Positions 43,436 to 64,000 of a DNA stretch of 64,000 nucleotides are shown piece after piece. Under the pieces are notes generated by a model. The model was not told where the DNA came from and made no database searches. It was given only the letters and a program-made list of their open reading frames with translations. Origin of the DNA: Prinia subflava (lineage: Eukaryota > Chordata > Aves > Passeriformes > Cisticolidae). A program made the position numbers and the translations under genes. The stretch's first letter is position 1; the number at the start of each line of letters is the position of its first letter. The stretch is taken from assembly GCF_021018805.1 (NCBI RefSeq), contig NW_026960610.1, positions 620,001 to 684,000 on the forward strand, written 5' to 3'.

Positions 43436-45830
<2,395 letters not shown>

Positions 45831-56405: not shown

Positions 56406-56958
56406 ATTCAGACAGATGCTCCGTTAGCCCCGCGGCCTGATTTGGCTGCGATGCAGGACCAGAACCTACATCGCAATTCAGGAGAGGGCGAGCGCGTATC
56501 TCCGACAACGCTTCAGCCTCATTTTCACCTTTCTCAGCCAGCTCGACCCGGCTGGGGCGGCGGGCGGGCGACAGAGACTCAGCCTCCGCTCTGAGCAGGG
56601 CGGTTTTCGTCGAGCTGGGCAGGGGGGCGTGGCTGATCGGCCACAGCTCTCGGCTCCCTGCCACTTCTGGGGTGCTCGGGGCCGGACAGACAAGTCCCAG
56701 TCGGGAGGGAATGGCGGCGGCACGGCTGCCGCCCCTGCTCCCCACTCAGCCTGCATGTGCTGGCCGGGGACGCGGGAGCACGGCATGGCCGCCGCTGTGA
56801 CCAGCTCGGTCTCTGCAGGCGGCGTGGGGACGGTCCGGGCGGGAGGGCCAGGCGACGGCGGCGGCACCGTGGTTAGCAGCCCCTTCCCTGTACAAAGGGA
56901 CCGGTGCGGCGCGGGGACAGGGCAAGGAGGGGCCGTCCCCGCTGGGCTCGCCTGCTGA
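56406..56958 (-). pseudogene. Upstream gag and leader of the gag-bearing ERV, truncated
   Basis: GC-rich Pro/Ala/Ser-coding sequence in several overlapping minus-strand frames, probably the gag N-terminus and leader in shifted frames. It ends abruptly where the provirus LTR begins at 56959. Confidence 0.4.
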
Positions 56959-57745
56959 TGTTAGGAACGAAAGAAAAAAAAAAAAACAAAAAAAAAAACC
57001 AAAAAAACCCAAAAAACAAAACAACAAAACAACCACCCCACAACTGACCCTCTCCTGGCTAGAGTAACACCCCCCACACCCCAGACAATCTGAGCAGGGA
57101 GAGCTGCCCTGAAGGAAAGTTGCCTGGCAACTTTTCCCTACCTAATTGAAATGTGAAAAGAAGCTGCCCACACCTAGATAGCCCTATTGTCCTTTGTAAC
57201 TACCTCATTTAGCAAGAGTAACTTCGGCTATGACCAGGACAAATGCATATGCATTTGGATATGCAGATAGGGCAGGGCCGCCCCCGTGGATCCTGGGAGG
57301 TTTTTTTGGGGAAACTGCACCCCAGGACAGGAAGCTGGATTCATCAGAAGAGAATTGGATAGTGCCCTGGCTGAGCGGGGAGTGGATGCACCTCCTGGCC
57401 TGGTTTGAAGATTGGCCATGACCTGTGAGGAGCCTGAATGGAATGGGAACCGGCCAGCTGAGCTGACTGATGCAGAGAATGGGAAACTCTTGAAACTTTT
57501 CCCTGAGGGCAAAGAGCTGACTGCCAATGCTCTGCCTTCTGATGGTTGACCAGAGAGAACTGCCAGCTGTTTCTATGGGAACAAGGACTCAGCATCCACT
57601 GGGACAGCTCCTGCTCCTTCAGATGGCTGCAGTAGTGTGGAAAACTCCGATCGGACTTTGCAATCCTGCTGATGATTTTAATAATGAGCTGATCACTTTA
57701 ATAAAGAGCTGAATATTAATAAAGGCATATGCCCTGTTCGTTTCA
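56959..57745 (+). repeat. 5' LTR of the CR1-carrying provirus
   Basis: 787 bp, TGTTAGGAACG to TTCGTTTCA, with an A-rich start and AATAAA at about 57718. Same family as the solo LTR at 16949-17706. Confidence 0.93.
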
Positions 57746-57747
57746 AT

Positions 57748-57765
57748 TGGGTGCTCGTCCGGGAT
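57748..57765 (+). promoter_or_regulatory. Primer-binding site, tRNA-Pro-like
   Basis: TGGGTGCTCGTCCGGGAT starts 2 nt after the LTR. It differs at one base (T for G, position 5) from the classical gammaretroviral tRNA-Pro site. Confidence 0.82.
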
Positions 57766-58169: not shown

Positions 58170-58900
58170 TGAGATTAAGATCCTCGGCAGGGCAGGTGAG
58201 AGGTCCCTGGCAGGGCTGCCCCAGAAGGCAGATGAGAGGAGATCCCCAACAGGGAAGGTAATGTCCCTGGCAGGGCTGCCCCAGAAGGCAGATGAGAGAT
58301 CCCCAACAGGGAAGGTAATGTCCCTGGCAGGGCTGCCCCAGAAGGCAGATGAGAGAAGATCTCCAGCAGGGCAGGTGAGAGGTCTCTGGCAGGGCTGCTC
58401 CAGAAAGCAAGTGAAAGAAGATCCCTGGCACAGCAGGATGCCCCATCAGGCAGGTGAGGGATGATCCCCGGCAGAGCAGGTGCAAGGTAATGTCCCTGGC
58501 ATAACAAGACAAGATGCTCCAGTAGGCAGGCGAGAGAAGATCCCCAGCAGGGCAAGTGAGAGGCCCCTGGCAGGGTTACTCCAGAAGGCAGATGAGAGAA
58601 GATCCTCAGCAGGGCAGGTGAGAGGTCCCTGGCAGGGCTGCTCCAGAAGGGAATTGAAAGAGGATCCCCGGCACGGCAAGATGCCCCATCAGGCAGACGA
58701 GGAAAGATCCCCGGCAGAGCAGGTGCAAGGTAATGTCCCCGGCATGGCAAAACAAGATGCCCCAGTAGGCAGGTGAGAAAAAGTCCCTGGCAGGGCAGGT
58801 AGAAAGTCTCGGGCAGGGCAGGATGCCCTGACAGGCAGGCAAGGAAGATCCCTAATAGGGCAAGTGGGAAGTCCCTGGCAGGATAGGGCATGATGTCCCA
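58170..58900 (+). repeat. Irregular leader repeats, about 60 bp unit
   Basis: At least ten imperfect copies of a block built around GGTCCCTGGCAGGGCTGC and CAGATGAGAGAAGATCCC. Long frames on both strands in this stretch (up to about 300 codons) come from the repeats and are not genes. It lies between primer site and gag, where packaging signals normally sit. Confidence 0.88.
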
Positions 58901-59088
58901 GGAGGCAGGTGGGCTGTCCCCAAGAGAGTTTAAGCATATCTGGGCAAGCAAGTAAGATATCATTAGCAAGCAGGAAAGCAGGCATAAAGGTGAGGAAACA
59001 GACAAGAAAGCAGACAGGCAAGCAAGAAGGAAAGCAAGATTTATGAGCAAAAAAAAGGCAAACAAAAAGAGCAGCCAGATAAACAAAA

Positions 59089-59660
59089 AGGGAGGCGAAG
59101 GGGACTCGGCCGGAGTTCGGGTGTGAGGCTCGGCAGGACGTTCGACCTCACCCCGGCAGGGAGTTCGAGTCTCCTAAGCCTAGGGGGCAAGGGGGGCTTG
59201 GCCGGAGTTCAGGTGTGAGGCTCGGCAGGACGTTCGACCTCAGCCTGGCAGGGAGTTCAAGCCTCCTAAGCCTTGTAGGAAAGGGAGGCGAAGGGGACTC
59301 GGCCGGAGTTTGGGTGTGAGGCTCGGCAGGACGTTCGACCTCACCCCGGCAGGGAGTTCGAGTCTCCTAAGCCTAGGGGGCAAGGGGGGCTTGGCCGGAG
59401 TTCAGGTGTGAGGCTCGGCAGGACGTTCGACCTCAGCCTGGCAGGGAGATCAAGCCTCCTAAGCCTTGTAGGAAAGGGAGGCGAAGGGGACTCGGCCGGA
59501 GTTCGGGTGTGAGGCTCGGCAGGACGTTCGACCTCACCCCGGCAGGGAGTTTGAGTCTCCTAAGCCTAGGGGGCAAGGGGGGCTTGGCCGGAGTTCAGGT
59601 GTGAGGCTCGGCAGGACGTTCGACCTCAGCCTGGCAGGGAGATCAAGCCTCCTAAGCCTT
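59089..59660 (+). repeat. Leader tandem repeat, 3 x about 193 bp
   Basis: Three near-identical units beginning GGAGGCGAAGGGGACTCGG, each made of two related half-units of about 96 bp that share GAGGCTCGGCAGGACGTTCG. GC-rich and unedited. Confidence 0.93.
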
Positions 59661-59771
59661 GTGAAGTTAGAGAGTTCAAACAAGACTCAGCAGGGGTCCA
59701 AGCCTAGAAAGCCTAGAAAGAAGTTCAGACTTAAGTCGAAAAGTTAAGAGAGATACCCTTAGCAGAAAATA

Positions 59772-60900
59772 ATGGGTGTGATTCATAGTAGTACGTGTCA
59801 TAGCCAAGAGAGAGTTTTAAAAAGAGACAGACGAAAAAGTGTCAAAAGTGGGTTGCCAAGAAATTATATTCTGACCCTTTAAAGTTCAGCAAAGAGATTC
59901 AGAATGTTTAGTTGTGAGAGATCAGACAACCTTTAGTTATCTTAAAGTTTAGATTGCCAATCAGAATATTCCAGTTTAGATTGAAGCATTGTTAAAGTAC
60001 TTCGTTTTTCCTTTTATTTTAAGGCCTAAAAACTGAGATGATGTTATAGTAAACAAGCAGACCCTTCCAAAAGGACAGTAAAGAAGATTCTCCCTAACAT
60101 CCCCCTAGAACAATTGTCAGACCAATAATATCCTTAAAAGACCACAAAGAGTCCAGATAAAGTTGACATGTTATAGTAAAAGAATATAGCTGAGATTAAA
60201 ATTACAAAGAGAGTAGTCATAGTGTAAGACCTGAATTCAGTAAATGTGTAACCAGTTAAACCAACATCTCTAAGCCCAAGAAGACCCTGATGTAAAACCA
60301 CTATCTTATGCAGCCTGCTGGCTAGAAAACTATAAGTAATGAAAATGTGAAAATATGCAAACTCTCCCTCCTACCCCAGCTGTACCTCCAGTCTCTTCCT
60401 TAACCTCTCCAACAGTTCCCCTTCACCAATTGTGATACCCTCACTTCCCCACTTGGGAGTGGGAACCACCCCTGCCCAGTGTTTCTCTTGGCCCGTCTCC
60501 ACTACTGCTCCCTCTACCTGGTGTTTTAGAGGAAGAGACAGATTACAACACCCAATCCAAAGCACCAAGAACAGAGGAGGTCTTTCCCCTTAGAAAAGTT
60601 CCTATAGATTAATTAAAAAGATTAAAATTTATAAATGCACCTTTGACAGCCCCTGAAGCCCAAGACTCTAAGAAAGAGAGAGGGTTTAGTAGAAGCCCCC
60701 ATTGGAATGTCTAACCAGCTAGACCAGCTTCTGAGGCCAAATAGTTATTTCTAGAGAGAGTTAAACTCTATTCTAATAGTTCTGTTCACTCCAGAAGAAG
60801 CCCGGATAGTCCAGATAGCAAAAATAAAAAAAATAGACTGTGACACCCAAGAGACCATAAGATGCCCTTAATAGACACCAGCTAAAATTCAGACCAAGAA
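59772..60900 (+). pseudogene. gag: Degraded gammaretroviral gag
   Basis: ATG at 59772 opens a short MGV... frame, a myristoylation-type start. Further along, a Pro-rich p12-like stretch (60360-60550) is followed by capsid-type FPLRKVP at about 60583 and the spaced L-D-Q-L...P-N-S-Y motif of gamma capsid at about 60720-60750. Where the family has a tryptophan, the codon is TAG (60752-60754). Many further TAG/TAA codons interrupt the frame in a G-to-A pattern. No protein can be made from it. Confidence 0.7.
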
Positions 60901-61224
60901 AAAAAAAAAAAAAAGCAAAGCATGAGAGACTATAGATCCCTGATAGTGAGAATCAAAGTCTACGGTCTACCTCTCAAAACTACTAGACCCAGTAGTTAAG
61001 AGATAACCAACTTGCCTGCAAACAGTTGCAGTAACAGCTACCCTAATAAAAGAAGTCTAAAAGGTTGATCCTGCAAAAGAAAAAATGCTAAGCCAGAAGA
61101 CTTAACACTAGTTGACTGACTCTAAAATAATGAACACAAGTGACTTAGAATTAATCACCCTATGCAGTTTCTCGCTAGAGAACCCCTAGCCAATCTAGAA
61201 CATGATTCAAAGTAAGAAGAAAAT

Positions 61225-62680
61225 TAGTAATTGCAGACAAAGAGAAAGCAGAAGTGCTTTATGCTTTGTTTTGCTGCTGTCTTTAGTGAGAAGACAGCTT
61301 GTCTTCAAGACAGTGGTCATACTGAGTCAGTAGATATTTTTAAAGAACAGAATAGTCCTCCTGTTATCAAAAACAAAGTAGTCAGAGAAGTAGTAATTTG
61401 CTTGAATGCCCACTCACATGAAATCCATCCCAAAGAGATAAGAGAGCTAACTGATAAGTTTGCAAAGCCACTCTATCATCTACCAACAGTCTCAACTCAC
61501 TAGTGAAGTTCTAGATGACTGAGAGCTAGCCAATGTAATTCCCATTCATAAAGAGTAGAGAAGAGCCTAGTAATTATATGCCAGTTAGCCTGACCAAAGT
61601 ACCGAGTAAGATGATAAAGCAGTTTATACTGAGAGCTATTGTGCAGCACTGATGAGATAAACAGAGTATCAGACCCAGCCAGCATGAGCTTAAGAGAAGT
61701 AAGTAGTGTTCGACCCCACTAGCCTCCTTCTCTGACCAGGTGACCTGCCTGGTAGATACATGAAAAGTTGTTTATGTTGTCTATTTAGACTTCAGCAAAG
61801 TCTTTGACACTGTTTCCCACAGCTTATACAAGAACACTCTTTGCTAAGTTAAGAACTGGGTAGATACCCAAGCCCAGAGAGTAGTAACGAATAGTGCTGC
61901 ATCCAGCAGGCAACCAGCCACCAGTGGTGTCCCTCAAAAGTCTGTGCTGAAGCCAGTTCTATTTATTATATTTATTAATAACACAGATGAAAGTATTGAG
62001 TCCTTCATTAGTAAATTTACAGATGACACTAAGCTGAGAGCACGTGTCCATCTGTTAGAGAGTAAGAAGACTCTGTAGAGAAACCTAAAATGATTAGATA
62101 GATAAGCAAAATCCAAGAAGATAACGTTTAATAAGTCCAAATCCCAGGTGTTGCATTTTAGCCACAATAACCCCCTGCAACCTTACAAGTTGAACGTAGT
62201 GTAGCTAGACAGTACCCAAGCAGAAAAAGACCTGAAAGTGCTAGGTGATAACCAACTAAATATGAGCCAGCAGTATGCCCTGATGGCCAAAGCTAACAAT
62301 ATCGTAGGCTGTATTGAGAATAATGCGGCCAGCAGAAGCAGAAAGGTCATCCTTTCCTTACACATAGCATTGGTGAGGCCACTTAGCATTGGTGAGGCCA
62401 CTCCTTGAGTACTGTGCCCAGTTCTGAGCCCCTCAGTTTAAAAAAGACATTAAGATGCTTGAGCGTGTCAAAAGAAAGCAACAAAGCTAGTGAGAAGCTT
62501 AGAACACTAGCCCTATAAATACTAGCTGGAAGAGCTGAAGTTGTTTAGCCTAGAGAAAAAGAGATTCAGAAGTAACATTATCACTACAACTCCCTGAAAG
62601 GTAGTTATAGTAAAGTGAGAGTGAGTCTTGTTCTTCAAGCAGCAACTGATAGAACAAGAAGACACAGTCTTCAGCGGTTC

Positions 62681-62727
<47 letters not shown>

Positions 62728-62868
62728 CTGCCTTGAGAAGTAGTAAAGTCACCATTCCTAGATGTGTGTAAGAAGAGAGTAGATGTAGCACTTAGTGACA
62801 TCATGTAATTAGAGTTAGACTTAATCCTAGAAGTCTCTTCCAGCCTAGTGATTCTGTAATTCTGTAAC
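61225..62868 (+). repeat. CR1 LINE segment (reverse transcriptase to 3' end) inside the provirus
   Basis: The plus strand follows the CR1 second ORF and 3' region: DKEKAEVL-type codons at about 61236, GTCTATTTAGACTTCAGCAA (the YLDFSKAFD region) at about 61778, the AGCCAGCAGTATGCCC and CTTGAGTACTGTGCCCAG blocks, and a 3' tail with ATTCTGTAATTCTGTAA at about 62851. Compared with the CR1 sequence as I know it, most differences are G to A. A run of 44 A (62682-62725) replaces part of the 3' region. It is in sense orientation with the retrovirus. Confidence 0.85.
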
Positions 62869-63248
62869 TAAGAAGAGGAAAATTATGAAAGTCTCTTCCA
62901 GGTGCTGCTCACCACACATACCGCAGTGCGAACTCCAGAGAGGTCAGACCCACGTTATCGGAGTCACAGGACCAGTACCGCCCCTGATGCCGAACCAGAC
63001 CCAACAGGACCACCTGCCACCTCTTCTACGTAGACAGCAATTGAGGGACCAAGAGACCTATCCCTAGTTAAATTGTTATCGAGTGTGTCTTAATTCCTGA
63101 TAAAAAAACCAAGTTTAAAGGCACCCCTCCCACATCTGCTCAGTCTCCCGCTGGGCAATTCCCCTAGAGAACTAAATTTCTTTGAGCAGTGTCTACTGAG
63201 AGGATACACAGTAGGAAGCTGCAAGTTGATGCGGGCTACAGCCCGATC
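62869..63248 (+). other. Provirus 3' internal region
   Basis: Between the CR1 end and the polypurine tract; retains GGG and looks little edited from about 63.06 kb. A short frame at 62885-63067 could be a remnant of a viral gene but has no diagnostic motif. Confidence 0.4.
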
Positions 63249-63268
63249 AAAGAAATAGAGGAGGGATT
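63249..63268 (+). promoter_or_regulatory. Polypurine tract
   Basis: AAAGAAATAGAGGAGGGATT directly before the 3' LTR. Confidence 0.85.
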
Positions 63269-64000
63269 TGTTAGGAACGAAAGAAAAAAAAAAAAAAACA
63301 AAAAACAAAACAACAAAACAACCACCCCACAACTGACCCTCTCCTGGCTAGAGTAACACCCCCCCCCACACCCCAGACAATCTGAGCAGGGAGAGCTGCC
63401 CTGAAGGAAAGTTGCCTGGCAACTTTTCCCTACCTAATTGAAATGTGAAAAGAAGCTGCCCACACCTAGATAGCCCTATTGTCCTTTGTAACTACCTCAT
63501 TTAGCAAGAGTAACTTCGGCTATGACCAGGACAAATGCATATGCATTTGGATATGCAGATAGGGCAGGGCCGCCCCCGTGGATCCTGGGAGGTTTTTTTG
63601 GGGAAACTGCACCCCAGGACAGGAAGCTGGATTCATCAGAAGAGAATTGGATAGTGCCCTGGCTGAGCGGGGAGTGGATGCACCTCCTGGCCTGGTTTGA
63701 AGATTGGCCATGACCTGTGAGGAGCCTGAATGGAATGGGAACCGGCCAGCTGAGCTGACTGATGCAGAGAATGGGAAACTCTTGAAACTTTTCCCTGAGG
63801 GCAAAGAGCTGACTGCCAATGCTCTGCCTTCTGATGGTTGACCAGAGAGAACTGCCAGCTGTTTCTATGGGAACAAGGACTCAGCATCCACTGGGACAGC
63901 ACCTGCTCCTTCAGATGGCTGCAGTAGTGTGGAAAACTCCGATTGGACTTTGCAATCCTGCTGATGATTTTAATAATGAGCTGATCACTTTAATAAAGAG
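63269..64000 (+). repeat. 3' LTR of the CR1-carrying provirus (cut by window end)
   Basis: Nearly identical to 56959-57745; about 45-50 bp of its 3' end are outside the window. Confidence 0.93.

Follow-up and report, generated by a model that had tools for sequence, protein, structure and literature searches.

A hypermutated, CR1-carrying retroviral genome as the probable founder of a non-autonomous lineage in Prinia subflava

How does a long interspersed nuclear element (LINE) come to lie inside a retroviral pol gene, and did it travel in the viral genome or land in one provirus later? The question is raised by a provirus near the right end of a 64,000-nucleotide stretch of Prinia subflava DNA (assembly GCF_021018805.1, contig NW_026960610.1, positions 620,001 to 684,000), hereafter the window. 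The right end of the provirus lies beyond the window and was taken from the flanking genome; the whole copy is called L020. Our analysis indicates that this provirus is very probably one copy of a multi-copy, non-autonomous ERV1/gammaretroviral lineage, which was founded by a CR1-carrying genome with APOBEC-type hypermutation and was spread by a helper in trans. Every copy with paired long terminal repeats (LTRs) that we read has CR1, the integrations are separate, and the edits are shared.

A sequence-only reading of the window had reported a sense-oriented CR1 LINE in a provirus with LTRs and a polypurine tract (PPT), and this was borne out. The CR1 segment is about 1.65 kb long. With stops read as X, the frame at 61848-62408 matches reverse transcriptases (RTs) of avian CR1 type; the best match, which is to a Hirundo rustica protein, has E 3.6e-63 and 66% identity, and 144 proteins among 191 candidates reach E values up to 1e-3. 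A piece of this frame scored 19.1 bits against Pfam RVT_1, below the cut-off of 29.6. At the DNA level, the native CR1 L081 covers 61221-62865 with two aligned pieces (70% and 67%), and L082 covers 61221-62630 (72%). The DNA match is clear from 61221, and the 5' junction lies within about 61140-61221. The 3' end carries the CR1-type 8-bp repeat, with two units in the window and three in L084, a sister locus described below; the motif is given in the accessible text of PMC6523648. The segment has both a CR1 RT and the terminal repeats of CR1. Self-comparison of the window revealed no further CR1 in it. Native CR1s are numerous in the genome (19264 candidates), and many of the 150 that were scored have long open frames; identity to a Hirundo rustica protein reaches 96% among them. 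In contrast, a survey reported few full-length CR1s in passerines (PMC8665684, accessible text).

We scanned the genome (1.12 Gb, 537 contigs) with a 300-nt LTR piece, which gave 754 first-look candidates. The 40 best were scored, listed at 99-100%, and they make up 12 LTR pairs and 16 single LTRs. The sequence-only reading had proposed that other proviruses with this LTR be checked for CR1 at identical junctions, and all 12 LTR-paired copies (L009-L020, the window's included) do carry the edited body and CR1 with the same junctions. Across these copies, 3154 of 3278 gap-free columns are invariant. The mean pairwise distance is 0.0086 for CR1 and likewise 0.0086 for the gag/pol remnants (66 pairs); it is higher, 0.0196, for the segment 3' of CR1, partly as an artefact of L019, which lacks the start of its 3' LTR. 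Copy lengths vary with the number of 193-bp leader repeats (halves of 101 and 92 bp; 3 to 15 units, i.e. 6 to 30 half-units) and with indels; L011 and L012, for instance, lack a 208-bp stretch. Three of the 16 single LTRs were viewed (L003, L004, and L007), and the 1.5 kb that flank each of them on both sides contain no internal part; the coordinates put 5 of the 13 others no more than 7 kb from a junction place.

The CR1 3' junction (41-nt pattern, up to 2 mismatches) occurs at 76 genome places, with 0 for the reversed control, and the 5' junction region (49-nt pattern, up to 3 mismatches) at 96, again with 0 for the control. Among the 3' junctions, 73 of 76 are preceded on the same strand by a 5' junction at a distance of 1456-2049 nt and 3 are unpaired, while 23 of the 96 places with a 5' junction have no 3' partner among the listed places. 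The pol-CR1 part of these pairs falls into size classes near 1475, 1680, and 2020 nt, the long class being known by its spacing alone. CR1-free relatives were sought with a 42-nt integrase pattern (112 places, of which a part is listed), and for each of four of these places without a nearby junction match (L085, L086, L087, and L088) about 500 nt were read. Three of them show the CR1 3' end at the same junction: L085, L087, and L088, the last of which has only the terminal stretch of CR1, followed by other sequence. No clean copy with intact pol and without CR1 was seen in this sample of the most alike copies.

The 12 copies are separate integrations, since the 4-bp duplications that flank them differ. 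The duplication of L012 is not readable, and thus 11 of the 12 copies were scored. Ten of the 11 have exact duplications, all different, and L017 has one mismatch; the duplication of L019 is GGGG, within a G-run. Because their target duplications differ, one duplicated locus is not a likely source of the 12 copies. As the separate integrations all have CR1, CR1 travels in the viral RNA. The proposal of a non-autonomous lineage with CR1 in its packaged genome is thus supported by the separate integrations, by CR1 in 12 of 12 copies, and by the 76 junction places. The lineage shows what is expected of a non-autonomous LTR retroelement: it has integrated separately many times, its copies have defects in common, and long reading frames are lacking. 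In the internal part, the maximum length of a stop-to-stop frame ranges from 84 to 113 aa across the 12 copies (105 aa in the window provirus). The LTR pairs of 10 of the 12 copies were measured and differ by 2, 5, 1, 3, 0, 0, 1, 5, 7, and 5 substitutions (765-787 aligned sites); the window provirus has 5 in 766 between its 5' and 3' LTRs. Songbirds accumulate 2-3 substitutions per site per billion years, and at this rate the insertions are very recent to about 2 million years old.

The G-to-A damage that the sequence-only reading saw in the gag part and in CR1, and not in the LTRs, proved to be real. The internal part between the leader and the PPT is A-rich, and GG/(GG+AG) is 46/425 in 59640-62876, 309/610 upstream, and 68/160 downstream. 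The LTRs show no GG loss. Segmentation by GG gave a gain of 96.7 on the shuffling grid (99.0 on the full grid), as against a maximum of 12.6 in 300 shuffles. For the CC/CT statistic of the opposite strand, which was not shuffled, the gain was 12.0 and the breakpoints were different ones (57759 and 58920, within the leader). The damage is absent upstream of the edited block and less clearly absent downstream. The block starts at about 59640-59666, near the end of the 193-bp repeats, and stops at 62870-62876, a few bases from the CR1 3' end.

The window was compared with native CR1s over 61221-62630, where both L081 and L082 align. Against L081 there are 375 differences, among them 169 G>A, 34 A>G, and 44 C>T, and 107 of the 147 GG sites of L081 read A in the window. 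Against L082, 168 of 341 differences are G>A and 99 of 133 GG sites read A. When L081 was compared with L082 as a control, there were 44 G>A and 45 A>G among 212 differences, and 11 of 151 GG sites read A. In other contexts of L081, the window reads A at 31 of 111 GA, 17 of 75 GC, and 14 of 92 GT sites. A wider count, which includes the 3' part that is poorly aligned in L082, gave 126/168 for L081, 108/146 for L082, and 24/184 for the control. At the residue level, there are 44 differences in 146 columns, of which 25 are pure G>A and 2 pure C>T. Because native CR1s stand in for the ancestor, the direction of change is our reading of these comparisons. The strand-biased G-to-A change with a preference for GG neighbours is the pattern of APOBEC-type hypermutation, suggesting that a host deaminase acted during reverse transcription.

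The edits are common to all 12 copies, and therefore the damage does not come from the last replication of the window provirus. GG is scarce alike in all of them (57-66 GG each; CC 231-239), and the shared damage is thus traced to their common ancestor. Of 84 private changes in the 12 copies, 14 are G>A and 21 are C>T, and 2 of the 14 G>A are before a G; since there is no G-to-A excess among them, editing is invisible in recent copying. The damage had been taken as evidence that CR1 was already part of the packaged genome. CR1 in the packaged genome stands (12 of 12 copies), but the damage is ancestral, so the argument had to be changed.

Three more diverged sister loci (L084, L085, and L087) share CR1, the junction, and most of the edits. 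The 5' pattern has 17 places at 2-3 mismatches, and one of them, L084, differs from the window by 104 substitutions in 1692 sites (32 G>A, 11 A>G). In both, 113 edited GG sites read A, while 11 further native GG sites read A in the window alone and 0 in L084 alone; at native G not before G, the window-only and L084-only changes are 7 and 5. In the 3' part there are 49 native GG columns: 36 read A in the window, L084, L085, and L087, 9 read G in all, 3 read A in the window alone, and 1 reads A in L087 alone. Pairwise substitutions among these four are 3.6-8.3% in the 3' part. The shared and window-only GG sites suggest that most of the editing predates the split of the subfamilies and that a smaller part came later in the branch of the window.

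Retroviral remnants on both sides of CR1 indicate what it replaced. We searched 21 translated pieces against 20 and 40 loci of the same genome, with local E values and without low-complexity filter or composition correction. Remnants of the gag capsid, the pol connection region, and the integrase C-terminus all match gammaretrovirus-like loci (Table 1). The integrase match is the weakest of the three, because a proline-rich frame also reached E 1.1e-4 in this search, close to the 5e-5 of integrase. The match falls on this motif again in L055, L054, L053, and L051 (E 0.001 to 0.2), and the top capsid and integrase matches fall in one provirus (L065 and L056, C1:88511470 on). Moreover, the remnants stand in the order gag, pol, integrase, which supports the assignments. 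Pfam and PDB gave no relevant match for the gag/pol pieces, a protein search with the gag piece gave nothing, and neither did viral contigs searched for CR1 and for the pattern of LTR and primer binding site (PBS). CR1 occupies the position of RNase H and most of integrase, mid-pol, and the stretch from the integrase remnant to the PPT simply lacks env. The view that CR1 stands in place of pol and env thus has to be narrowed: it replaces the RNase H-integrase middle of a pol that has left remnants. Likewise, of the presumed gag remnants upstream of CR1, the one at 60662-60832 is gag capsid, but 60968-61186 is pol. The element has the TG...CA LTRs and the 4-bp target duplication of an ERV1/gammaretrovirus-like element (the 4-bp rule for ERV1 is given in the accessible text of PMC6523648), and gag and pol of gamma type are represented by the remnants alone.

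We infer the following course of events. The founder would have lost most of gag, pol, and env and gained CR1 in the middle of pol. It would then have been strongly edited by strand-specific G-to-A change in GG context, of the type that APOBEC deaminases make on minus-strand cDNA, and the edited genome would have spread afterwards. The copies encode nothing long and retain their cis parts (LTRs, PBS, leader, and PPT). Most likely they are transcribed from the LTR, and a helper retrovirus supplies the proteins for packaging, reverse transcription, and integration, CR1 going along as a passenger. The internal parts of the 12 copies have no frame longer than 113 aa, which argues for helper proteins in trans; an APOBEC enzyme as the editor and the gain of CR1 before the editing would complete the course. 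We also consider it rather likely that the hypermutated, LINE-carrying genome founded a long-lived lineage that was edited before its subfamilies split, was re-edited in one branch, kept or regained unedited cis ends, and has integrated recently.

Several observations weigh against this course of events. No helper was found, nor an unedited or CR1-free ancestor, in searches of limited reach. No DNA relation to the window provirus was seen for the 30 best Gag_p30 loci or for the 10 gag-downstream stretches, and the translated relation of those 30 loci to it is not significant. The 12 copies were drawn from the 40 best of 754 LTR candidates and are therefore among the youngest and most alike. 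L086 has the integrase remnant but no CR1 in the 500 nt read; it looks rearranged, since these 500 nt also contain an antisense LTR-like fragment. Furthermore, the edited block ends at 62876 and CR1 at 62870, whereas editing in a single reverse transcription is expected to continue towards the PPT; the last 398 nt of the internal part are merely mildly GG-poor (18/58). Such sharp block ends could reflect recombination with unedited genomes, by which unedited ends were regained, or selection that kept the cis ends. As for other retroviral loci, gammaretrovirus-like ones with long open frames are abundant in the genome, with up to 1969 aa at a Gag_p30 place (150 scored of 740 candidates).

How CR1 entered pol can be explained in two ways, which we rate about level. 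CR1 RNA might have been co-packaged, and RT might have jumped from the viral RNA onto the 3' end of the CR1 RNA, copied about 1.65 kb, and returned further upstream in pol. This fits the sense orientation, the junction at the CR1 RNA 3' end, and the replacement rather than addition of viral sequence. The distance from the connection region to integrase is 1907 nt here and 1842, 1854, and 1854 nt in L055, L054, and L051, and thus the swap is nearly length-neutral. However, the length match was noticed after the fact and may be chance, the distance is 2570 nt in L053, 4 of 10 stretches (from 40 rows) were measured, and there is no direct trace of template switching. We give capture slightly less than an even chance; transduction in the strict sense, i.e. 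capture during reverse transcription, is possible. Alternatively, a 5'-truncated CR1 entered pol of one germline provirus by target-primed reverse transcription, about 1.6 kb of pol was lost, and the locus seeded the lineage. The 5' truncation and the natural 3' end with its 8-bp repeat are the usual anatomy of a CR1 insertion, and native CR1s are plentiful. Yet a simple insertion spares its target, and here the middle from RNase H to integrase is gone; the empty site was not found, so no target-site duplication can be judged. Its probability also falls short of one half. A later CR1 insertion into the window provirus alone, outside the viral life cycle, has nothing in its favour beyond the CR1 anatomy. 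It is rejected as extremely improbable, because all 12 LTR-paired copies, and 76 places in the genome, have the same junction.

The pace of the editing can be weighed in the same way. The GG loss might have accumulated over many mild rounds in the absence of coding constraint rather than in one burst. The 11 native GG sites that read A in the window but G in L084, with none reversed, fit such a course, as do the 32 G>A versus 11 A>G and, in the 3' part, the three sites that are A in the window alone and the one in L087 alone. But most edits are shared (113 GG sites with L084, and 36 of 49 across the window and three sister loci), the private changes show no present editing, and changes where the native G is not followed by another G are about as many in the window as in L084 (7 and 5). 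Purely gradual editing is therefore unlikely in our judgement; shared edits together with window-only GG sites point to a large early event and a smaller later event at the least.

The features of the provirus are collected in Table 1. We take the PBS to be of the proline-tRNA type. It differs at a few positions among L009-L020, e.g. TGGGGGCTC, TGGGGACTC, TGGGCACTC, and TGGGTGCTC, as would result from the copying of several primer tRNAs or of a modified base. One of the gammaretrovirus-like loci with long open frames lies at C41:686547, about 2.5 kb beyond the provirus, and elsewhere in the window there is a SNORA69 match at 43599-43726 on the minus strand (Rfam, 72.9 bits).

Table 1. Features of the CR1-carrying provirus, in window coordinates
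Feature	Position	Strand	Remarks
4-bp target-site duplication CTGA	56955..56958 (5' copy)		3' copy beyond window, window-equivalent 64038-64041
5' LTR, TG...CA, 787 bp	56959..57745	+	
PBS, proline-tRNA-like	57748..57765	+	varies among copies
Leader, G-rich, short repeats, GG not depleted	58171..59086	+	
193-bp tandem repeats, three units	59087..59665	+	3 to 15 units across the 12 copies
G-to-A edited block, GG depleted	59666..62876	+	common to the 12 copies
gag capsid remnant	60662..60832	+	local E 9e-7 to L065, 26% identity
pol remnant, RT connection region	60968..61186	+	local E 9.6e-8 to L057
CR1 LINE fragment, sense, 5'-truncated, natural 3' end, two 8-bp units	61190..62870	+	
A-run within CR1, variable length	62683..62726	+	in the 208-bp stretch missing from L011 and L012
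Integrase C-terminal remnant	62881..63000	+	local E 5e-5 to L056
PPT	63250..63266	+	
3' LTR, interrupted by window edge	63269..64000	+	ends at window-equivalent 64037

In the usual account, a provirus is finished once APOBEC enzymes have edited it. In this case, an edited, LINE-bearing genome is present in dozens of insertions, some of them young, and thus a competent non-autonomous element can survive editing or even arise from it. It seems, then, that a chimeric viral genome, though crippled, can give rise to a successful family of parasites; if so, host editing would be a generator of helper-dependent parasites of the retrovirus. The sister loci with fewer GG changes, followed by the young copies, form a series in which editing, recombination, and helper parasitism can be studied together. 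No LINE-carrying hypermutated ERV family was met in a literature search that missed most subscription papers, which is no proof of its absence in print.

Among known systems, the nearest in life style is the D-type of cattle ERVK[2-1-LTR], also a non-autonomous lineage with an APOBEC3-type editing trace. It lacks functional genes, is the most numerous class, and was proposed to be a parasite of autonomous C-type partners (PMC10924933). It differs in being a mammalian ERVK, and in the accessible text of that paper the D-specific fragment is not described as a LINE and no hypermutated founder is described. OVEX1 of chicken and zebra finch is nearest in content, as it is also a bird ERV locus with a CR1 fragment. 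However, according to the accessible text of PMC2717909, OVEX1 is single-copy except for its last third, its CR1-Y4 fragment is antisense and in the 3' UTR, and it is an old composite rather than a spreading family. The nearest in damage are the G-to-A edited LTR elements of zebra finch (Knisbacher and Levanon 2016, as reported in the accessible parts of PMC6523648 and PMC6497032). Birds, oscines above all, show the strongest editing signal (PMC6497032), and the effect in medium ground finch is much more limited than that in zebra finch (PMC6523648), as far as these texts go. In contrast to the zebra finch elements as reported there, one edited, LINE-bearing genome is here common to dozens of copies. 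In the accounts compared, each seen in part, none of these three systems combines all three traits. Finally, the CR1 of the provirus has the same sequence and 3' end as the native CR1 LINEs of this genome, but the shared junctions suggest that it was moved by LTRs and not by its own machinery, so that a LINE sequence is seen spreading through the machinery of a retrovirus.

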